A stretch of 64,000 bases of DNA from Deltaproteobacteria bacterium. Lineage in GTDB: Bacteria > Myxococcota_A > UBA9160 > UBA6930. Below, one piece after another: positions 37,979-47,845 of this stretch. Position 1 is the first letter of the stretch; the number at the start of each line of letters is the position of its first letter. The translations under genes were made by a program, and so were the position numbers. The stretch covers positions 1 to 64,000 of the forward strand of contig JAJDAQ010000068.1 of the NCBI GenBank assembly GCA_029261815.1. The letters run 5' to 3'. Under the pieces are notes generated by a model. The model was given only the letters and a program-made list of their open reading frames with translations, searched no databases and was not told where the DNA came from.

Positions 37979-38614
37979 ATGCGTCCCGGCGACACGACTC
38001 AACGGCCCCTCTCGCTCGTTGCATTGGACGTCGCCGGCGTTGTGGTTTTCTGCGCCGCGCTCGTCTGGGCGGTATTGCAGGTGGCGGCGCTGCCGGGATG
38101 GACGGGTGCCCTCCTGTTGGGCGCGGCCGGAGTGGCCGGCATAGCGACCGCCGACTTTTCGAGCGGCGTCGTGCATTGGCTCGGCGACACCTACGGTTCC
38201 GAGGAGACGCCGCTCCTGGGCCGCGCCTTGATCCTGCCGTTCCGCGAACATCACACGGACCCGATGGCCATCGTTCGTCATGGCTTCCTGGAAGTCACGG
38301 GCAACAACGCCTGGGGGGCGACGCCCTTCGTCTGGCTCGCGGGTAAGCTCGCGCCCGCCGTTGGCACGGATCCGTGGGCGACCGCCAGCTTCGGGTTCCT
38401 GGTGGCCTTGTCGATCACGGGCGTGATCAGCAATCAGCTGCATCGCTACGCACACATGGCCGAAGTCCCGGTCGCGGTTCGTTGCCTGCAGCGGTGGGGC
38501 GTCTTGCTGTCGCGCGAGGTGCATTCCCATCATCATCGCAACGCGCACGATCATGCGTTCTGCGTGGTGAACGGCTGGATGAATCCGATCCTGGACCGCT
38601 GGGTGCGGCCTTGA
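37979..38614 (+). CDS. carF: Plasmanylethanolamine desaturase, CarF/TMEM189 (Kua) family
   Basis: A 211-residue four-helix membrane enzyme with the full set of His motifs of the lipid-desaturase/Kua domain: SSGVVHWLGDTYG, PFREHHTDPMAIVRHGF, NQLHRYAHM and SREVHSHHHRNAHDHAF. In Myxococcus CarF and animal PEDS1 this fold introduces the vinyl-ether double bond of plasmalogens from alkyl-ether phospholipids using a diiron centre and O2. All eight or so His candidates are present. The following membrane protein overlaps by 4 bases (TTGA). No ether-lipid synthesis gene is visible in the window. Confidence 0.9.
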   Translation: MRPGDTTQRPLSLVALDVAGVVVFCAALVWAVLQVAALPGWTGALLLGAAGVAGIATADFSSGVVHWLGDTYGSEETPLLGRALILPFREHHTDPMAIVRHGFLEVTGNNAWGATPFVWLAGKLAPAVGTDPWATASFGFLVALSITGVISNQLHRYAHMAEVPVAVRCLQRWGVLLSREVHSHHHRNAHDHAFCVVNGWMNPILDRWVRP

Positions 38615-39336
38615 ACTTCGAGAGTTGGCACGCGTTCTACTACGGGGCCTGGCAATGGCCATGGGCGTTGTTGGTCGTCCCCTTCGCTTGGATGATCGCC
38701 CGCGCCGTCGGTCGAGGTGCGCCGCCGACGGACCTGCTCGGTCGCTTCATTCGTCTCTGGAGCACGATCTTCCTGGTCGAGACGATGCTGGACCCGATCG
38801 CGGGCCAGCTCGTGAAGTCGGCGAGCGATCCGGTTCAGACGGGTGTGGGCCTCTTTTTCGTTCTGGCCGGAGACTTCCGGATCTACTGGCTGCTCGTCGC
38901 GTTGGTCGAGCGCGGCGCGTGGACATGGGCCGGCGTTGCACGCGCGCTGGGGTTGACCCTCATCGTGCCGGCAGCAGCCTTTGTGCTGACGAGAACCCTG
39001 GGTGCCATTCACGGGGAAGTGCCGGGACAGGTCCTGTGGCTGACCCATGAAGCGCTCTTCGTCGCCGTCATCGTTTTCGCCGCACGTTTCTGGGTGCCGA
39101 GTGCGCTCGAAGGGGAGGCCGCCCGTCTGGCGCGCCGGATCTGCGCCTGGGTCGCTGTCTACTACAGCCTCTGGGCGGCCGCCGACGTCCTGATCCTGGC
39201 CGGGGTCGATGCGGGCTGGCTCGTACGCTGCATCCCCAACCAGCTCTACTACGCGCTGACGGTTCCGTTCGTCGAGTGCGCCGCTCGCTGCGTCTCGAAT
39301 GCGCGCACCAGTACGTCGGCCCAGGCCGCGAGGTAG
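38611..39336 (+). CDS. Membrane protein of unknown function next to carF
   Basis: A 241-residue protein with about seven hydrophobic segments (WQWPWALLVVPFAWMIA, VQTGVGLFFVLAGDFRIYW, LGLTLIVPAAAFVL, others). I recognise no family. It starts at TTG 38611, overlapping the carF stop, so it is most likely translated together with CarF and may work on the same lipids (inference). Its final 88 bases overlap the SIS-creatininase gene on the opposite strand. Low similarity to anything I know; a reading-frame test across relatives would help. Confidence 0.65.
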   Translation: MNFESWHAFYYGAWQWPWALLVVPFAWMIARAVGRGAPPTDLLGRFIRLWSTIFLVETMLDPIAGQLVKSASDPVQTGVGLFFVLAGDFRIYWLLVALVERGAWTWAGVARALGLTLIVPAAAFVLTRTLGAIHGEVPGQVLWLTHEALFVAVIVFAARFWVPSALEGEAARLARRICAWVAVYYSLWAAADVLILAGVDAGWLVRCIPNQLYYALTVPFVECAARCVSNARTSTSAQAAR

Positions 39337-41069
39337 CGCTCGGCTCGGTCGCGCGAGGCCCGGCGCGGGTCGCCGACCACACCGTCACGCGCATGCCGGC
39401 GCAGGTCCGGGTAGAAGAGCGCGCTTCCGGAAGGCGCCGACTCCATGAAGCCGCGCTTCAGGGCATTGCGCCGGACGGCGCCCGGTCGGATGCGGTCGAG
39501 GATCGAAGTCTCGAGCTCGCCAGCGTGTTGCCCCGCTTCGGCGGCCGAGATTCCAGGGTCCGCCGCCAGCATCTCCTCGAAGAGCGCTCCGTGCTCGGTG
39601 AACGCGAACCAATGCGCGGGCGCGGCGGCCTGGACCAGCCGCTCGCTGTGGTTGCGCAATGTCCCGAGGTTTCCACCGTGCGCCGAATAACAAAAAACAT
39701 GCTCGAAGCCGTGGTGCGCGAGGGACTCGCCAATGTCAGCCAGGACGGCCGCGAGCGTTTCCTCGGTCACGCTCAACGTTCCGGCGAATGCGAGGTGTTC
39801 GCTCGCCGCTCCGACCGGCAGCGTGGGCAACAAGACCGCGTCCGGCATGCGCTCCACGACCCGGAGTCCGACGGCTTCAGCGATCCAGGTATCCGTGGCG
39901 AGCGGCAGGTGGGGGCCGTGTTGTTCGGTGGATCCGAGCGGGAGCAGCGCGGTTCGTCGTCCGGCGGCCAGGTGGGCATCGACTTCGGGCCAGGTCGCGG
40001 CATCCAACTGGATCCCGGGCCGTGTCCGAGGGCCGGGCGCGAGGTCGCGTCCGACGCCGTAGAGCGGTTCGTCTTCATCCTTGCCCGGCCACGTCTCCGG
40101 GTCCCGCTGAGCGGCCGCCATGGCCGCCAGGATGAATGCATTGGCCGCGGCTTCGGCCTCGATCGCCGCGAGGGGCTCGGGAAGGGTCGTCCAGACCGGA
40201 ACGAGCCGGTGGTGCCGGGCGTCGAGCATGCGGCCGATCCGGTCGAGGTGATCGGGGGCGGCGGGGTCATTCTGCGCGACGAAGGCCACCACGAACGCCG
40301 GCCCGTTCCGCACGACCTGGAATGGACCGTGGGCGAAATCGAGCAGATCTGTCACCGGGGGCATGGGTCGCAAGAGCGCCTCGGACGCTTTCAGTCGCAG
40401 GTTGTCGAGATGAGGGGCCAGCGCTCCACCCGCGAGGAAGAGAAGCGGCGCGGAGGCGAGCAGCGCCGCCTCCGCGCGCGCAGATGCTTGCGCTGCGGAG
40501 AATGCGGCTTGCGCAGCGCCTGCGACTTCGGCCGCCGACGGTCCCGGGGCCGCGCCGAATGCGCGCGCGACCTGCCAGGCCGGCCAGTACGCAATCGCGG
40601 GCCCGGCCAAGCGAACCAGCGTCCCGTACTCGTCACCGGCACCGGAGTCGACCAGGATGGCGCCGGCATCCTCCAGCGCTTGCGCAAATTGACCGCGCTC
40701 GTCGGGGCCCGGTCGTGTCGACGTGACGACGACGAGACCCTGCCAGGCGCCAGGCTCCGCGGTGGCGAGGCGGGCATTGGGCGAAAGCCCCTGGCTGAAG
40801 ACCACCAGCAGGTCTTCCCGATGACGCTGAGCGTGCTCGGCCGGGAAGGAACTCGGAGACAGGAAGCGCGCCGGCACACCGAGTCCGCCGAGGTGGTGGG
40901 CGAGGCTGCGCGCGTGGGCGCCCGAGCTTCCCACGCCGGTCGTGACGACGCGCCGGATGCCCGCGGTCGGTAGCTCGAGAAGCGCGTCGCCCAGCGCCTC
41001 GATTCGTGCCGGAACCGACGCCGCCCGTTGGCGAAGCCGAGCGAGGGCGTTGTCGGTCCCCGCAGACAT
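39249..41069 (-). CDS. Double-SIS (GlmS-like) domain fused to creatininase domain
   Basis: 606 residues. Residues 1-330 look like two SIS sugar-phosphate-binding subdomains: TTGVGSSGAHARSLAHHLGG (44-63), VFSQGLSPNARLA (90-102), then LKASEALLRP and DFAHGPFQVV, the GlmS-like Glu and HGP positions. Residues 350-590 form a creatininase-family amidohydrolase: GSTEQHGPHLPLATD with E382, H384 and D393 as metal ligands, SAHGGN (H464) and GQHAGELETS (H515/E518). Creatininase members open cyclic amides or deformylate, for example ArfB acting on FAPy. Starts 5 bases after the cyclohydrolase gene. I know no characterised protein with this fusion. Confidence 0.82.
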   Translation of the reverse strand: MSAGTDNALARLRQRAASVPARIEALGDALLELPTAGIRRVVTTGVGSSGAHARSLAHHLGGLGVPARFLSPSSFPAEHAQRHREDLLVVFSQGLSPNARLATAEPGAWQGLVVVTSTRPGPDERGQFAQALEDAGAILVDSGAGDEYGTLVRLAGPAIAYWPAWQVARAFGAAPGPSAAEVAGAAQAAFSAAQASARAEAALLASAPLLFLAGGALAPHLDNLRLKASEALLRPMPPVTDLLDFAHGPFQVVRNGPAFVVAFVAQNDPAAPDHLDRIGRMLDARHHRLVPVWTTLPEPLAAIEAEAAANAFILAAMAAAQRDPETWPGKDEDEPLYGVGRDLAPGPRTRPGIQLDAATWPEVDAHLAAGRRTALLPLGSTEQHGPHLPLATDTWIAEAVGLRVVERMPDAVLLPTLPVGAASEHLAFAGTLSVTEETLAAVLADIGESLAHHGFEHVFCYSAHGGNLGTLRNHSERLVQAAAPAHWFAFTEHGALFEEMLAADPGISAAEAGQHAGELETSILDRIRPGAVRRNALKRGFMESAPSGSALFYPDLRRHARDGVVGDPRRASRDRAERYLAAWADVLVRAFETQRAAHSTNGTVSA

Positions 41070-41074
41070 GGTGA

Positions 41075-42094
41075 CTAGGGCGTTCGCGCGAGCAGGGCCG
41101 CGACGTGCGGCGAGCCCGGCGATTCATCGGGTGCGAGGAACAGCGCGCGGCCGGCGCCGGCTGCTTCGATCTCGCTGCGCAGGCGGCGCCAGTCGGCCGC
41201 GTCCGGGCCGGGTTCGACCAGCGGGAAACGGTCCGTCAGGGTCTGGGCGACGACGCCGCGCGGCCCGCCATCCCGCCCGAGTTCGAGGACGACGCGCTCG
41301 GTCCCGCGCAGCAGATCGAAGTAGACGTGGCAGCGGTACCAGACGGGCTCGGGCGCATCGGCCTGAAGCGGATGTAGTGGCAACAGGTAGGAGGCGACAT
41401 GCGCCACGTGGGGGAGGTCGGCGAGGAGGCTGCCGTCCGTCCACTCGACCGTCTCCGGGAGTCGGGCGGCGGTGGCGCGCCCCGGGTTCTCGAAAGCATG
41501 GCCCGATGCGGACTTGGCCGCGAGGTAGTGCTGGTTGAACGGCGAGACGTGTGGGTCGACCCGCTGTGTCCCCGAAACAGCGACCTTGGCTTGCTCGAGC
41601 CCGATGATCTTGTCCGGGTTGTTGGTCAGCAGCTGAAGGGGCGCGCAAACGCCCAGGGCCTGGAGTGCGAACGCGACCTCGCGATAGCTGCGCGCGTCCG
41701 CCGGGAGACCCATTCGTTCGTAGGCCTCGAACGTGTGGATCCGCTCCTTCGAAGCCTGGACCATCATCCGGTCGCGTGCCTTCGCGACGAAGCCCGCGCC
41801 TCGTCCTTCCTGCATCAGGTAGATCAGGACGCCGCGGCCGGCGCGGTCGATCGCGTCGAGGCCGCCGGCCAGCTGCTGTGCACAATCGCAGTCGCAGGCG
41901 CCGAAGACTTCGCTGGTGATGCAGGCCGAATGGATGCGTGCCAGGACCGGCTCGTGGGTCGAGACCTCTCCGCGTGCGAGCGTCCAGACGGATTCGCCCC
42001 GCGCCAGGTCCAGGAAGCGGGTACCACGGAAAGCGCCGTGCCGCGTCTTCAATGCGCGGCGTTCGACTTCGAGCAGGGATCCGAAGAGCGGCAT
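41075..42094 (-). CDS. Variant GTP cyclohydrolase II with C-terminal extension
   Basis: 339 residues against 196 in E. coli RibA. The RibA domain (residues 15-200) aligns closely: LARIHSACIT and CDCDC supply zinc ligands C58, C69 and C71; QEGRGAG; the Asp/Arg pair D133/R135 in ADAR; LLTNNPDKI. E. coli Tyr105 aligns without gaps to R109 (KARDRMM). In Streptomyces a paralogue with Met here stops at the formylated product FAPy. The last 140 residues have no counterpart in RibA and are unrecognised. Four-base gap after the crotonase gene. Probably not the riboflavin housekeeping enzyme. Confidence 0.85.
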   Translation of the reverse strand: MPLFGSLLEVERRALKTRHGAFRGTRFLDLARGESVWTLARGEVSTHEPVLARIHSACITSEVFGACDCDCAQQLAGGLDAIDRAGRGVLIYLMQEGRGAGFVAKARDRMMVQASKERIHTFEAYERMGLPADARSYREVAFALQALGVCAPLQLLTNNPDKIIGLEQAKVAVSGTQRVDPHVSPFNQHYLAAKSASGHAFENPGRATAARLPETVEWTDGSLLADLPHVAHVASYLLPLHPLQADAPEPVWYRCHVYFDLLRGTERVVLELGRDGGPRGVVAQTLTDRFPLVEPGPDAADWRRLRSEIEAAGAGRALFLAPDESPGSPHVAALLARTP

Positions 42095-42098
42095 GCGC

Positions 42099-42899
42099 CT
42101 AACTTGGATCCTCGAACCGGGGCTTTCGCTTTTCCATGTTGGCTTTGACGGCCTCTTGCTGGTTGGGCTTGCCCATGAGGGTGCCCTGGAGCCGGGCTTC
42201 GAGGGCCAGGCCGTCCTCGACCGTTCCCACGACCGCCTGGTTCCACAGTTGTTTGGCCGCGCGGACCGCGTCCGGGCTGCGCTCGGCGATCTCGTACGCG
42301 AGCTTCATGGCGTCCGCGTGCGGGTCTTCGCTCACATGCGTGGCCAGGCCGAGTTCCTTCGCTTCGACGCCCGAGATGACCCGGGCGGTGAAGGTGAGTT
42401 CCTTGGCGTGGTCGAGTCCGATCAGGTGGCGCAACGTCTGTGTGCCCGAGACATCGGGGATCAAGCCCCAGTGCGATTCGCGAATGGACAGCCGGGCATC
42501 GGGCGCGACGTACCGGATATCCGCACCGAGGGCGATCTGGATGCCGGCGCCGTAGGCCACGCCGTGGACGGCGGCGATGACGGGGACCGGGACTTCTTGC
42601 CAGACCCAGGCGGCGCGCTGCGCGTAGTTGGCCGGGCTCTCGTCGCTCTTTGTCGCGAGGTTGGGGCCCTCGCGCTTGCCCGTGTTGGCCATCAGGCCGG
42701 GAATGTCGAGCCCGCTGCAGAATGCCCGGCCTTCGCCCGAAAGCACCACCGCGCGCAGGCTCTTGTCCTGGGCGAGTTCGGCGCCGGTTTCGACCAGGGC
42801 CATGAACATGTCCAGGTCGACGGCATTCATCTTGTCGGCGCGCGCCATGCGCACGTCGGCAATGCCGTCCTTCTTCTCCACGCGAACCCGATCGGACAT
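42099..42899 (-). CDS. Enoyl-CoA hydratase/isomerase (crotonase) family protein
   Basis: 266 residues. Oxyanion-hole segments are AFCSGLDIPGL and the ACC-like AAVHGVAYGAGIQIAL; RESHWGLIPDVSGTQTLRHL covers the catalytic loop, with Glu in RES and Asp in PDVSG. The C-terminus ends in the charged helix KANMEKRKPRF. A GGAGG-like site precedes ATG 42899. It is third from the regulator in the HxlR-divergent operon, between the CMD-like protein and the cyclohydrolase homologue, so it may serve the same pathway rather than fatty-acid oxidation. Confidence 0.87.
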   Translation of the reverse strand: MSDRVRVEKKDGIADVRMARADKMNAVDLDMFMALVETGAELAQDKSLRAVVLSGEGRAFCSGLDIPGLMANTGKREGPNLATKSDESPANYAQRAAWVWQEVPVPVIAAVHGVAYGAGIQIALGADIRYVAPDARLSIRESHWGLIPDVSGTQTLRHLIGLDHAKELTFTARVISGVEAKELGLATHVSEDPHADAMKLAYEIAERSPDAVRAAKQLWNQAVVGTVEDGLALEARLQGTLMGKPNQQEAVKANMEKRKPRFEDPS

Positions 42900-42924
42900 C
42901 CAACCTCCAAGGTGAAGGGGGATG

Positions 42925-43488
42925 CTAGCCCGTCTCCGGCGCAGCCGGGAACCGTTCGGCCATGGACTCGAGTGGGAGCCTCAGCGCATTCACCAGGAAT
43001 GACACAGCGTGGTACATCCCGACCGTGTAGATGATCTCGAGGGATTGCTCCTCGTCGAAGTGTTCACGGAGTGCTTCCCAGGCCGTGTCGGAGAGGTCCG
43101 AAGTCCGGTGGAGTTCGTCACACACGCGGACCAGCGCGGCCTCGCGCGGGTTCCAGCCGGCGTCGGTGGCCCCCGCTTGGGCCGTGCGCGCGACCCAGGC
43201 ATCGTCGAGGCCCAGGGCGCGGGCGAACGCCGTGACGTGTACGCCCCATTCGTACTCGGCGCCGCAATTGGCCGTCGTCCGGTGGATCACGAGTTCTCGG
43301 TCACGAATCGGGACCGGCCCGCGGTCGAGCACGCCAGCGCGCATGAAGCGGGGGAAGATGCGCGTGTTGGTGGCCAGGACGCGGAACAGCAGCAGCGGGT
43401 CCATCCCCGGCGGCATGGCGAGATCGAACAGGTGTTGGACCTCGTCGGTGTAGGGCGGCTCGAGGGGGAGGATGCGGGGCGTCGTCAT
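42925..43488 (-). CDS. Carboxymuconolactone decarboxylase family (AhpD-like) protein
   Basis: 187 residues of the CMD/AhpD all-helical fold. The core segment is RDRELVIHRTTANCGAEYEW, followed by GVHV: Cys then Glu-x-Glu-Trp-x-x-His, so the CxxC redox pair of AhpD is reduced to one Cys and a peroxidase role is unlikely. Strong AAGGAGAT ribosome site before ATG 43488. First gene of the operon divergent from hxlR, with a palindromic operator in the 77-base gap. Confidence 0.86.
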   Translation of the reverse strand: MTTPRILPLEPPYTDEVQHLFDLAMPPGMDPLLLFRVLATNTRIFPRFMRAGVLDRGPVPIRDRELVIHRTTANCGAEYEWGVHVTAFARALGLDDAWVARTAQAGATDAGWNPREAALVRVCDELHRTSDLSDTAWEALREHFDEEQSLEIIYTVGMYHAVSFLVNALRLPLESMAERFPAAPETG

Positions 43489-43500
43489 CAGGATCTCCTT

Positions 43501-43546
43501 GCTACGGAAAACGAAGCGTCTTTTCGAATGCTACGTTTTCCGTAGC
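43501..43546. promoter_or_regulatory. Palindromic operator in the CMD/hxlR divergent region
   Basis: GCTACGGAAAACG (43501-43513) and CGTTTTCCGTAGC (43534-43546) are perfect 13-base inverted repeats, 20 bases apart. The right arm also forms a smaller palindrome, GCTACG-TTTTC-CGTAGC (43530-43546). The element fills most of the 77-base gap between the two divergent starts, ideal for autoregulation by the HxlR protein. Confidence 0.7.
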
Positions 43547-43565
43547 TATTCGCAAGGAGAATCCG

Positions 43566-43892
43566 ATGTCCCCGCCCCAGCCCGGTCGTCCCGTTCGCGG
43601 CTCACGAACGGGACGGCCGATCATGGCCGCCCTCGACCTCCTGGGTCGCCGTTGGACGCTCCGCGTCCTGTGGGAACTCCGTGAGGGCCCCGCCACCTTT
43701 CGGGCGCTTCAGGAACGCTGCGGCGGCATCTCGCCGAGTGTGCTCAATACGCGCCTTCGGGAACTGCGCGACGCCGGGATCGTGGGGGAGGCCCTGGCCG
43801 AGGGCACCGCGCTGACCCGCCAGGGCGAGGCCTTGCTGAAGGCGCTGGGACCGCTGGACGGCTGGGCCAAGCGGTGGGCGAAGAGACGTTAG
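43566..43892 (+). CDS. HxlR-family winged-helix regulator
   Basis: 108 residues, the usual HxlR length. Motifs LLGRRWTLRVLWELREGPATF, within which the first helix lies (residues 25-45), and [19 protein letters not shown], the recognition helix and wing lead-in. One Cys (in QERCGG, residue 47) rather than the redox pair or N-terminal Cys of HypR-type sensors. A strong AAGGAGA site precedes ATG. Divergent from the four-gene CMD-crotonase-cyclohydrolase-SIS/creatininase operon, and very likely its regulator through the 43501-43546 palindrome. Confidence 0.88.
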   Translation: MSPPQPGRPVRGSRTGRPIMAALDLLGRRWTLRVLWELREGPATFRALQERCGGISPSVLNTRLRELRDAGIVGEALAEGTALTRQGEALLKALGPLDGWAKRWAKRR

Positions 43893-43895
43893 GCG

Positions 43896-45236
43896 TCAGT
43901 ACGCCGCAGCCGGAAGCCAGGTGACGAGCGCGGGCCAGAAGAGAAGCGTCGCGAGTCCGATCAGTTGCAGGGCGACGAACGGGGCGACGCCGCGATAGAG
44001 GTGCGGAAGCTCGATGCCCTCGGGCGCAACGCCCTTCAGATAGAAGAGCGCGAAGCCCACCGGGGGCGTCAGGAACGACGTCTGGAGGCAGACCGCGACC
44101 AGGATGGTGAACCAGAGCTTGTCGATCCCCAGGGTGGTCGTAATCGGCTCGACCAGTGGAAGCACGATCAGCGTGATCTCGATCCAGTCGAGGAAGAAGC
44201 CCAGCGCGAAGACGAGTGCCAACAAGCAGAGCACCACGCCGGTCGGCCCGAAGGGGAGGGCCGTGATCGCCCCCTCGATGACTTCGTCGCCGCCCAGTCC
44301 GCGCAGGACGACCGAGAAGCAGGTGGCGCCGAGGAAGATGGCGAAGATGAACGACGTCGTGCGCGCGGTCGCGCGAGACGTATCGCGCAGCGTCTGCAGT
44401 CGGAGCCTTCCCTTGACCGCCGCCAGCAGGGTCGCTCCCGCGGCGCCGACGCCGGCGGCCTCGGACGGTGACACGATGCCGAAAAAGATCGAGCCGAGGA
44501 CCGAGCCGATCAGGGCCAGGGGCGGCAGCAGTGCACGGATGACGTTCCAGAGCGCGGCGCGGTCCATGCGTGTCGCATTCGCGGGTGCCAGGTGCGGCCG
44601 TGCTGTGCACAACACGATCAGGTACGTCAGGTAGAGGCCGGCAAGCAGGAGGCCGGGGAAGACGGCGCCCAGGAAGAGGTCGCCGACGGACAGCTGCATC
44701 GGCTCGCTCATCAGGACGAGCATGATGCTGGGTGGAATCAGGATGCCGAGGCAACCAGCAGCAGCCACGGTTCCGACGGCGAGTTCCGGCTGGTAGCCGT
44801 CGTCGAGCATGGCCGGAAGGGCCAGGGTGCCCAGCAACGCCACCGAGGCGCCGATGATGCCCGTGGAGGCAGCCAGGACAACTCCCAGCAGTGTCACCGC
44901 GATCGCGAGTCCCCCCGACATCCGCCCCAGGGCCTGCTGCATCGCGCGCAACAGTTCGCCCGCGATGCCGCTGTGGTCGAGCATGTGCCCCATGAAGATG
45001 AACAACGGCAATGGAACGAGGCCGTAGTTGGACATGGTTCCGTAGATCCGGTCGACGACGAGACTCAGCGTGGTCAGGTCGGCATCCACCGGGACCCCGT
45101 TCGCGTTCAAGACCTCGCCGAGGATGGCGAACCAGACCCCCACGCCGGCGAGCACCCAGGCGACCGGATAGCCCGACATCAGCAGAGCGATGAAGCTCGT
45201 GAACATCAACGCGACGAAGACGAGGTTCCAGTCCAT
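43896..45236 (-). CDS. dctM: TRAP transporter large permease (DctM)
   Basis: 446 residues with about twelve transmembrane helices. Family segments: LPLFIFMGHMLDHSGIAGELL near residue 90, GAVFPGLLLAGLYL, LTPPVGFALFYLKGVAP near the C-terminus. It forms the transport channel of a tripartite ATP-independent periplasmic transporter, driven by the Na+ or H+ gradient. ATG 45236 is 2 bases from the dctQ stop. Substrate not predictable; TRAP systems usually carry organic acids. Ends 3 bases from the hxlR stop. Confidence 0.92.
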   Translation of the reverse strand: MDWNLVFVALMFTSFIALLMSGYPVAWVLAGVGVWFAILGEVLNANGVPVDADLTTLSLVVDRIYGTMSNYGLVPLPLFIFMGHMLDHSGIAGELLRAMQQALGRMSGGLAIAVTLLGVVLAASTGIIGASVALLGTLALPAMLDDGYQPELAVGTVAAAGCLGILIPPSIMLVLMSEPMQLSVGDLFLGAVFPGLLLAGLYLTYLIVLCTARPHLAPANATRMDRAALWNVIRALLPPLALIGSVLGSIFFGIVSPSEAAGVGAAGATLLAAVKGRLRLQTLRDTSRATARTTSFIFAIFLGATCFSVVLRGLGGDEVIEGAITALPFGPTGVVLCLLALVFALGFFLDWIEITLIVLPLVEPITTTLGIDKLWFTILVAVCLQTSFLTPPVGFALFYLKGVAPEGIELPHLYRGVAPFVALQLIGLATLLFWPALVTWLPAAAY

Positions 45237-45238
45237 GT

Positions 45239-45784
45239 CTACGTCGAGGTCTCTCGGGCATGGGGCGGGTCGGCGGGTGCGCCCAACAACGTCGCGAGCT
45301 GTCGAGCCGCCGTTCCCAGTGCCTGGATCGCGAGCAGGGCCAACGCGAAGAACAGGACGCCCTTGATCGCCCACCGCGCGGGCAAGCCGCTCGGCATCGA
45401 CGAGCGTTCGCCCATGTCCCAGGACTGCACGAAGAAGTCCCATGCGGAAGCCGCGGTGATCAGGGCGAACGGAAGCAGGAGGGCCAGGGTTCCGACCAGT
45501 TCGACCCAGGCCCTGGTGCGCGGGGAGAATCGCGCGTGCAACAGGTCCACGCGTACGTGGTCATCGTTGACCATGGCGTAGGCGTAGGCGAGCAGGAAGC
45601 CGGCGGCGTACAGGTGCCACTGGAGTTCTTCGAGCTCGATGAAGCCGCGACCGAAGCCGTAGCGGAGCGCCACGTTGACGATCAGGACCGCGCCAAGGAC
45701 CGGATAGAGCCAGGCGGCGGCCTCTCCGACCCGGGTCGAGAGCGCCGCCGTGGCCTGCGAGAAGCGCAGCAGAGCCTGGGTCAC
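45239..45784 (-). CDS. dctQ: TRAP transporter small permease (DctQ)
   Basis: 181 residues, four transmembrane helices, with the family segment YGFGRGFIELEELQWHLY and LLAYAYAMVNDDHVRVDLLH. It pairs with DctM and is required for TRAP transport. It starts 7 bases after the dctP stop, in the order P-Q-M typical of these operons. C-terminal 20 residues are soluble and vary in the family. Confidence 0.9.
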   Translation of the reverse strand: MTQALLRFSQATAALSTRVGEAAAWLYPVLGAVLIVNVALRYGFGRGFIELEELQWHLYAAGFLLAYAYAMVNDDHVRVDLLHARFSPRTRAWVELVGTLALLLPFALITAASAWDFFVQSWDMGERSSMPSGLPARWAIKGVLFFALALLAIQALGTAARQLATLLGAPADPPHARETST

Positions 45785-45791
45785 GACTGGT

Positions 45792-46868
45792 TCAGTTCGC
45801 CGCCGGCGGCGGGTACGCGATCGTGGACCAGGGCTTCTGGCGGGCCAGATAGCTGCGCTGCGAGTCGAGGGCGCGCGCGAAATCGGGGTCCTCGGCGCTC
45901 ATCTCGGCCAGTAGTTCCTCGGTCGCGTTCCGCATCACGTCGAGCATCTCGGGCGACCAGGTGTGGATCGTGACGCCGTCGGCTTCAAATGCGGCGAGCG
46001 CTTCGGCCTGGACCGAAACACCGCGCGCGATCTGGAAGATCGTAGTGGCGTGGCACGCGGTCTCGATCGTCGTGCGTTGGCCATCCGACAGGCCGTCCCA
46101 GACGGGCTTGTGCACGATCAGCTCCATGATCGACGCGGGCTGGTGCCAACCGGGAAAGTAGTAGTGCTTGGCCACCTTCTGGAAGCCGAGGTTCCGGTCG
46201 ACGACGGGCATGGAGTATTCCGTGGCGTCGAGGACACCGCGCTCGAGGGAGACGAAGAGATCGCCCGCCGGAATCTGGGTGGCAGAAGCGCCGAGTTTCT
46301 CGAGCACCTTGCCGCCGAGCCCGGCATAACGAACCTTCAAACCGACCAGGTCATCGGCAGATTCGATGGGTGTGCGAAACCAGCCAGAGGCCTCGGGCGG
46401 CAGCGCGCCGCAGGGAACCGGCACGAGGTCCACCTCGGCGTAGAGCTCGCGCCAGAGTTCGAGTCCGCCTCCCTCGTAGAGCCAGCCCAGTTGATCACGG
46501 GTTTCGGGACCGAACGGCACGGCACCGAAGACGGCGGCCGCCGGCACCTTGCCCAGCCAGTACGGCGAGAACGAGAGGCCGGCGTCGATCTTGCCGGCCG
46601 AGACCGCGTCGAAGATCTGCAGGGGCTTCACCAGCTTGTCGACGTCGTAGACCTTGATGTCCATCTCGTGGCCCGGAAGCGCATCGAGGGTGTCGCGCAG
46701 GTAGACGACCGCCTCGCCGAGCACGGGCATCGAAAACGGGTAGGAGCTCTGGATCTTGATCCGGACCCGTCGTTCGCCCGTGGCCTCGCCACTGGCCGTG
46801 TCCTGCGTGGGCGCTCCGCACCCGAGCAGCACCAGCGTGGCGAGGAAGGTGGCGGCCGCCCGCGTCAC
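45792..46868 (-). CDS. dctP: TRAP substrate-binding lipoprotein (DctP-type)
   Basis: 358 residues. The signal peptide ends in the lipobox LVLLGCGAP, so this TRAP binding protein is probably a lipoprotein. The mature part has the DctP/TAXI-like bilobal segments RIKIQSSYPF, LKVRYAGLGGKVLEKLGA and VLDATEYSMPVVDRNLGF, with the conserved substrate-binding Arg possibly in KVRYAG. GTG 46868 overlaps the previous stop by one base (TAGTG), suggesting translational coupling. Similar proteins bind mannitol, 2-oxoacids or other acids; ligand unknown. Confidence 0.88.
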   Translation of the reverse strand: MTRAAATFLATLVLLGCGAPTQDTASGEATGERRVRIKIQSSYPFSMPVLGEAVVYLRDTLDALPGHEMDIKVYDVDKLVKPLQIFDAVSAGKIDAGLSFSPYWLGKVPAAAVFGAVPFGPETRDQLGWLYEGGGLELWRELYAEVDLVPVPCGALPPEASGWFRTPIESADDLVGLKVRYAGLGGKVLEKLGASATQIPAGDLFVSLERGVLDATEYSMPVVDRNLGFQKVAKHYYFPGWHQPASIMELIVHKPVWDGLSDGQRTTIETACHATTIFQIARGVSVQAEALAAFEADGVTIHTWSPEMLDVMRNATEELLAEMSAEDPDFARALDSQRSYLARQKPWSTIAYPPPAAN

Positions 46869-47845
46869 TACTTGGCCTGGCGCAGGAATTCGGAGAGGCC
46901 GTAGCCCGTCCGGTCCCCGAGCTTCCATTCCGTCATGCCTTCGCCGATGTAGGTCTCGAGCTCACTGCGGCGGTTCCGCAGCGGAATGAAGTTCTGCACC
47001 GTGCCCGTGATGGTGTGCGACTCGCCGCTCTGGGTCTTGACGTGGGCCGTCACCGTCTTGTGGAAGGTGCCGTTGTCTTCGTACTCGGCATCGACCGTGG
47101 CTTCCACGATCCGGTCCATTTCGCCGTCGCGAATGATCACGCCGCCGGCGCTGCGTTGTTCGCCCGCCGCATCCTTCTGGACCACCGACACCATGGCGGC
47201 GAGGTCCGGCCCGAAGTTGAGCGTGAGCCACTCGTACTGGTGGATGGCCTGCCAGTGGCGCGGTCCCCAACTGTGGTCGCGCAACCCATAGCCGTCGACG
47301 TCGTAGACATCGTCTCCGATCTGCACGGATCCGGTCACGTGCATGTGCTGCTCGAAGTGGGCCTTGGCGAACGATTCCTCGGCCGAGCCGCCGTCGAGCT
47401 CTTCGTTCTTGTGGCCGTAGAGCGGGCCCGCGGCGTCGTGTTGCAGGTCGAAGCGCACCGCGACCTTGGGATTGTTCTTGAAGGCCTTGCTCGGGTCCTT
47501 CATGTCGCGCGGTTCGGCCATCAGCACACAGCGACCATCGAACGTCGTGCGATGCGTTTCCGTCGGCTCGACGACCTCGAAGGTCAGACCGCCGGCATCA
47601 TGCGCGTCGTTGTTGTCGATGCGCGGCCGGGCGAACGTGAAGGCCACTTTGCCGTCGGGCAGGTAGAGGCACACCGTCATCTCGGCCTGGCCTTCGTTGG
47701 CCCGGTTGCCGATCCGGAACCATCCACCGAGCGACGCGCGGGTGTCGAAGAAGTTGTAGTACGCACTCTCGTTGAAATTCGGCTCGGGGCCGAGGGGGTG
47801 CATGTAGTCGTCGGCGGGGTCGAGGTTTCCGATGATGCGGGCCAT
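46868..47845 (-). CDS. Lipocalin/CrtC-like conserved protein
   Basis: 325 residues, beta-rich, no signal peptide. It has VDGYGLRDHSWGPRHWQ near residue 215, a segment shared with CrtC/AttH-like and DUF7064-type lipocalins often found beside lipid- or steroid-degrading genes. I see no classical catalytic motif; CrtC enzymes hydrate carotenoids, others are unstudied. Strong AAGGAGC before ATG 47845. It is co-transcribed with a TRAP transporter (1-base overlap with dctP), so it may act on the transported substrate. Confidence 0.7.
   Translation of the reverse strand: MARIIGNLDPADDYMHPLGPEPNFNESAYYNFFDTRASLGGWFRIGNRANEGQAEMTVCLYLPDGKVAFTFARPRIDNNDAHDAGGLTFEVVEPTETHRTTFDGRCVLMAEPRDMKDPSKAFKNNPKVAVRFDLQHDAAGPLYGHKNEELDGGSAEESFAKAHFEQHMHVTGSVQIGDDVYDVDGYGLRDHSWGPRHWQAIHQYEWLTLNFGPDLAAMVSVVQKDAAGEQRSAGGVIIRDGEMDRIVEATVDAEYEDNGTFHKTVTAHVKTQSGESHTITGTVQNFIPLRNRRSELETYIGEGMTEWKLGDRTGYGLSEFLRQAK

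Follow-up and report, generated by a model that had tools for sequence, protein, structure and literature searches.

What does a GTP cyclohydrolase II (GCH II) homologue do when the place of its Tyr105 is taken by arginine and a creatininase-domain protein is encoded directly beside it? The gene, here called GCH2L, occupies positions 41075..42094 on the minus strand of the window, a 64,000-nucleotide stretch from a Deltaproteobacteria bacterium (contig JAJDAQ010000068.1). The explanation that we favor, and to which we give an even chance of being right, is that GCH2L, the creatininase, and a SIS isomerase fused to the latter act together as a split substitute for GTP cyclohydrolase I (GCH I) and feed a pterin to a system that includes a cytochrome c protein, X, and a membrane protein, Y.

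The GCH2L open reading frame has an ATG start and encodes 339 amino acids, of which residues 12-175 match PF00925 in the Pfam scan (127.2 bits, cut-off 23.3). The phmmer alignment with E. coli GCH II (2bz0) has no gaps between the N-terminus and about residue 112, past the QEGRGAG motif, at a constant offset of +4. It pairs C58, C69, and C71 with E. coli C54, C65, and C67, and R109 (codon 41768..41770, minus strand, computed from the ORF start) with Y105; beyond a 3-residue insertion, D133/R135 pair with D126/R128. The MAFFT alignment, in which E. coli is represented by the stretch given by the phmmer match to 2bz0, has the same register at R109 and agrees on the Asp/Arg pair. The roles of Tyr105, the zinc cysteines, the GTP-binding residues, and the Asp/Arg pair are assumed from E. 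coli GCH II. Thus, the first-pass annotation of this DNA was correct in its gap-free register from the zinc cysteines through QEGRGAG, in the replacement of Tyr105 by arginine, and in the retention of the Asp/Arg pair.

The replacement is a property of the whole family. The position of Tyr105 is held by Arg in all ten GCH2L relatives (one of them a fragment) and by Tyr in all 27 other GCH II sequences compared. The zinc cysteines, Q74, E96-G97-R98, D133, R135, T157, and K162 are invariant in the nine aligned members, and the GCH II motif HSECLTGD reads HS(A/S)C(V/I/L)TSE in the full-length ones. GCH2L scores below both NCBIfam cut-offs for RibA (TIGR00505, 119.3 bits of 205.85; PRK00393, 140.4 of 148). 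Three loci (L014, L056, and L062) encode a GCH II that has Tyr105 but reads HSECLTSE, midway to the GCH2L motif.

Retention of all the remaining active-site residues would also be expected if GCH2L were a complete GCH II despite Arg109, or acted on another nucleotide; Arg109 would then be neutral or tune the substrate, and the creatininase would attack a different, later amide. The 3-residue insertion follows R109 after only a few residues, so that the position of the arginine side chain is uncertain; this leaves room for such an interpretation, as does a creatininase half that resembles MftE more than ArfB. The AlphaFold model of whole GCH2L (window and L001 sequences) has a mean pLDDT of 36.1, too low to use. 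The strict division between Arg in GCH2L and Tyr elsewhere argues the other way, and no newly placed invariant tyrosine is found nearby: the new aromatic residue near Arg109 in the MAFFT alignment, Y125, replaces a conserved Asn, and the occurrence of Phe at its place in one member shows that this tyrosine is not essential. We regard an intact or retargeted GCH II as unlikely.

Within the phylum, the distribution of the family is narrow. A search of 147 relatives and an order-wide profile search located the family in 10 of the order's 79 genomes, as nine proteins of full length, scoring 508 to 589 bits, and a fragment. The G049 protein also exceeds the profile threshold; it is an ordinary RibBA and was left out of the count. 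The profile search of 377 genomes of the phylum yielded no further close member, the next score being 181.5 bits for a sequence with Tyr. A contig scan with the single GCH2L protein gave one relative, taken as G001 and counted once. In the plasmid collection (195 records) no relative reached 80% coverage of the query, and the viral contigs searched contained none. In the tree of 37 GCH II domains a branch with 100/100 support separates the ten GCH2L sequences from all others, and the window genome carries a canonical GCH II (RibBA) in addition to GCH2L. Based on the invariant residues, the separate clade, and the canonical enzyme alongside, GCH2L is a distinct, conserved, and probably active paralogue of GCH II.

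Its C-terminal extension, about residues 200-339 (41078..41497, minus strand), had been described as 140 residues without a known match. The Pfam scan of this region indeed gave none. In hhalign, a profile of nine extensions scored 24.9 against eight canonical GCH II and 26.4 when set against the core of its own family; 68-73 columns aligned collinearly, all with the N-terminal half of the GCH II domain, and none of 200 column shuffles reached this score (maximum 18.8). Against a specific likeness, one of six control profiles, the N-terminal domain of X, scored equally high (25.0, but over 18 columns), and whole X gave 23.8. From this weak likeness to the N-terminal half of GCH II, which qualifies the earlier description, the extension is likely a decayed half-repeat.

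Upstream of GCH2L, the window carries (42099-46928) an enoyl-CoA hydratase gene, whose end is 4 bases from GCH2L, and beyond that a TRAP transporter; this flank is common to L001, from the same genus, and is not seen in the compared loci of other families. On the other side, the partner gene starts 5 bases past the GCH2L stop and encodes 606 amino acids. GCH2L is followed directly by this gene in all nine loci where the contig continues (eight fetched loci and the window). The predicted adjacent creatininase domain is confirmed by PF02633 (203.7 bits, residues 358-590), in the half spanning residues 346-606 plus the stop codon (39249..40034, minus strand). The annotation had mentioned creatininase alone; the first 345 or so residues (1-345; 40035..41069, minus strand) are a double-SIS isomerase.

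The Pfam SIS score of these 345 residues is 15.6, below the cut-off of 25 bits. The AlphaFold model, computed from two sequences (pLDDT 77.8, pTM 0.81), has as its nearest PDB structures NagB-II, the GlmS isomerase domain, glucosamine-6-phosphate deaminase, AgaS, FrlB, and FraB, with Z about 26 against GlmS-type and phosphosugar isomerase chains; in the model the double-SIS fold extends over the whole domain. E230 and H247 are invariant in all 23 aligned SIS proteins and align with a Glu and a His of AgaS (3c3j); they are presumably catalytic, an assignment taken from the residue roles in GlmS. K227 is lost in some stand-alone SIS proteins, which speaks against the split GCH I substitute.

Because FrlB and FraB are deglycases, the same matches would suit a sugar-phosphate deglycase that releases ribose 5-phosphate and a free aminopyrimidine from GTP-derived pyrimidine ribotides, in salvage or degradation and with no pterin involved. 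The TRAP transporter near GCH2L in the window genus would fit such a role. However, neither the exchange of SIS for GCH I nor the PruR-like X, both described below, would be explained, and we consider a deglycase very improbable.

In the creatininase half, E382, H384, D393, H464, and E518 are invariant in ten of ten sequences; which of them bind metal we assume from the residue roles of creatininase. The closest characterized model is MftE, below the NCBIfam mycofact_creat cut-off (135 bits of 172), and NCBIfam ArfB is far from its cut-off (15.8 of 180). Both values count against a deformylase role in the split substitute. There is a precedent for such a role in the same family. BrbF of Sinorhizobium and Brucella, originally annotated as creatininase, deformylates AFRPP in riboflavin synthesis (PMC9478397), and the authors of that report state that the GTP enzyme partnering BrbF is undiscovered.

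If the two proteins did the same here, GCH2L would make the formylated pyrimidine and the creatininase would deformylate it; the outcome would be what GCH II ordinarily makes, destined for riboflavin or a secondary metabolite, with the SIS half unrelated. The arginine in all members, the creatininase adjacent in nine of nine loci, and BrbF are all compatible with this. However, such a pathway leaves unexplained the fused isomerase and the mutual exclusion of SIS and GCH I beside X and Y, and the genome already has its own RibBA. Taken alone it is, in our view, not probable. The division between formation and deformylation that the first-pass annotation predicted, which the same alignments and the BrbF analogy suggest, survives as one putative step; the SIS half, X, Y, and the exchange with GCH I point to a pterin.

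The exchange is seen in the neighborhood of Y. This membrane protein (38590..39336, plus strand, start codon provisional) has no Pfam match and is encoded convergently with the GCH2L module. Next to it lies Z (37979..38614, plus strand), a Lipid_desat protein (PF10520, 158 bits) that travels with Y in the loci compared; in several loci Z and its relatives accompany a GCH I paralogue as well. A link of the pterin to a lipid desaturase or hydroxylase via Z is conceivable. X, too, is usually encoded at the Y locus, and it is upstream of GCH2L in seven of nine loci. In the window genus it lies on another contig, away from the GCH2L locus, which weakens the case for the favored reading.

Y is present in 57 of 377 phylum genomes (the Y alignment comprised 15 proteins). 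We classified the 57 loci by matches above 40 bits, keeping loci at contig ends and including the window: a GCH I paralogue is found in 15, SIS in 32, both in none, and neither in 10. The zero overlap has a chance of 1.5e-7 if the rows are independent, which they are not. The GCH I loci are divided between the order (8) and other lineages (7). The SIS loci include 11 inside the order, fused to creatininase, and 21 outside it, where SIS stands alone, mostly as Y-X-SIS. Both states, GCH I and SIS at Y, occur within families f4 and f7. In genomes without GCH2L the GCH I near Y is a second copy, with a compact operon Z-GCH I-X-Y. These paralogues retain the CxHH and HxC residues, which we take to be the key residues of GCH I, and are additional to another GCH I in all eight order genomes that have them. 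Loci L154-L182 are Y-X-SIS or GCH I-X-Y sets in other families of the phylum. Yet another paralogue, GCH I-like but divergent and scoring about 150 bits with PF01227, was noticed in G010:C9, G074:C10, G066:C20, and others, with no X or Y alongside in the two loci examined (L106 and L107).

Several observations in the same material tell against a dedicated GCH I substitute. The 21 loci outside the order have neither creatininase nor GCH2L; thus, GCH2L, creatininase, and SIS are not an obligate set. The ten loci with neither GCH I nor SIS (nine in the order, one outside it at a contig end) fit it no better, although the contig breaks off at some of them. In G040 (L092, G040:C241:8000-26000), X adjoins SIS-creatininase and Y is present in the absence of GCH2L, which seems dispensable there. 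We considered whether genomes with GCH2L have lost GCH I, and rejected this: 74 of the 79 genomes in the order have PF01227, including all those with GCH2L, and the window genome has its own GCH I on contig 26. A pterin source is therefore already present. Among the proteins of the module itself, the Pfam scan gave no PF01227.

The connection with pterins comes from X. A profile of its N-terminal domain (37 of 49 extracted domains aligned) had only three PDB matches at E<=10. The match to 7kom, an Oxidored_molyb domain-containing protein (E 0.01), covers most of the domain; the other two are Pterin Binding Proteins, 7rkb (E 0.056) and 7kos (E 0.28). Two of the three span only about 40 positions, and the Oxidored_molyb family of Pfam is touched by 4 of 37 X domains, with a best E of 0.0042; both facts weigh against the favored reading. 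A review identifies 7KOS as PruR of Agrobacterium, a SUOX-type periplasmic pterin-binding protein (PMC13259868). Each E-value is weak; what favors the match is that no other PDB sequence was hit, and the N-terminal domain of X can be said to resemble PruR-type proteins weakly.

GCH I acts on GTP by opening its ring, removing formate, rearranging the sugar in an Amadori reaction, and finally closing the ring of the pterin. In the split substitute, GCH2L would bind GTP, release pyrophosphate, and open the imidazole ring; with Tyr105 absent the formyl group would be kept, giving 2-amino-5-formylamino-6-ribosylaminopyrimidinone 5'-phosphate. The creatininase domain would then remove formate, and the SIS domain, as a sugar-phosphate aldose/ketose isomerase, would perform the Amadori rearrangement of the ribosylamine 5'-phosphate. 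Ring closure would yield 7,8-dihydroneopterin monophosphate, and the derived pterin would pass to X, a cytochrome c protein with a PruR-like N-terminal domain. At the Y-X-SIS loci, where SIS is alone, the deformylated substrate may come from the ordinary riboflavin enzyme RibA, as in Chlamydia. The module offers one candidate for each step of GCH I, and GCH II leaves a 5'-monophosphate; the interchange of SIS and GCH I would thus be explained. The SIS half, the link to X and Y, and the replacement of GCH I are the reasons for preferring a pterin pathway to a split GCH II as such.

A more detailed version is tentative, and we rate it somewhat below an even chance. Here the pathway is free of GCH I: a GCH II paralogue arrested by the Tyr105Arg change passes a formylated pyrimidine on to one protein that is both deformylase and Amadori isomerase, the resulting pterin is used by a pterin-binding cytochrome c of the periplasm, where it may carry electrons or act as a sensor, and throughout the phylum the supply is swapped among GCH I, RibA plus SIS, and the three-part set. 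If true, pterin synthesis has another start, assembled from a recruited riboflavin-type enzyme, a creatininase, and an aminosugar-type isomerase. The module would also be a natural example of a formylated intermediate handed between proteins, would hint at the kind of GTP enzyme to expect beside BrbF, and would point to a pterin-binding cytochrome system in little-studied bacteria.

For each ingredient there are known relatives: GCH II, creatininase-type deformylases, GlmS-type SIS proteins, the RibA-based pterin bypass, and PruR. Their combination, the Arg at Tyr105, and the exchange with GCH I beside a pterin-type cytochrome were not found described among the matches listed from the open-licence literature. 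GCH2L shares with GCH II/RibA (PF00925) the fold family, the zinc cysteines, and the GTP-binding and Asp/Arg residues, but differs in the Tyr105 replacement, the altered HSECLTGD motif, the 3-residue insertion, the 140-residue extension, and its separate clade. In a Streptomyces GCH II paralogue, a Tyr-to-Met change at the position of Tyr105 reportedly gives the formylated product FAPy. The same position is altered in GCH2L, and by alignment a formylated product may be expected here too, with Arg instead of Met. As in the archaeal ArfA/ArfB and BrbF systems, AFRPP formation and deformylation would lie on separate proteins, but the creatininase of the GCH2L module is fused to a SIS isomerase; to our knowledge, ArfA is unrelated to GCH II.

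A parallel to the proposed outcome is Chlamydia, where the product of RibA is reportedly diverted to dihydroneopterin 3'-phosphate and RibA together with an enzyme of the Trp pathway replaces FolE (PMC9765610). The GCH2L module would likewise lead from a GCH II product to dihydroneopterin phosphate. However, Chlamydia uses promiscuous housekeeping enzymes, and here a dedicated paralogue would act with a putative SIS isomerase of another fold. PruR (PMC13259868) is comparable to X through the weak match of the N-terminal domain to PruR-type structures, but in X this domain is joined to a cytochrome c domain. Finally, FolE (GCH I) would have the same overall outcome as the module, and its paralogue fills the same neighborhood in other genomes; it is a single enzyme (PF01227), unrelated to the proteins of the GCH2L module.
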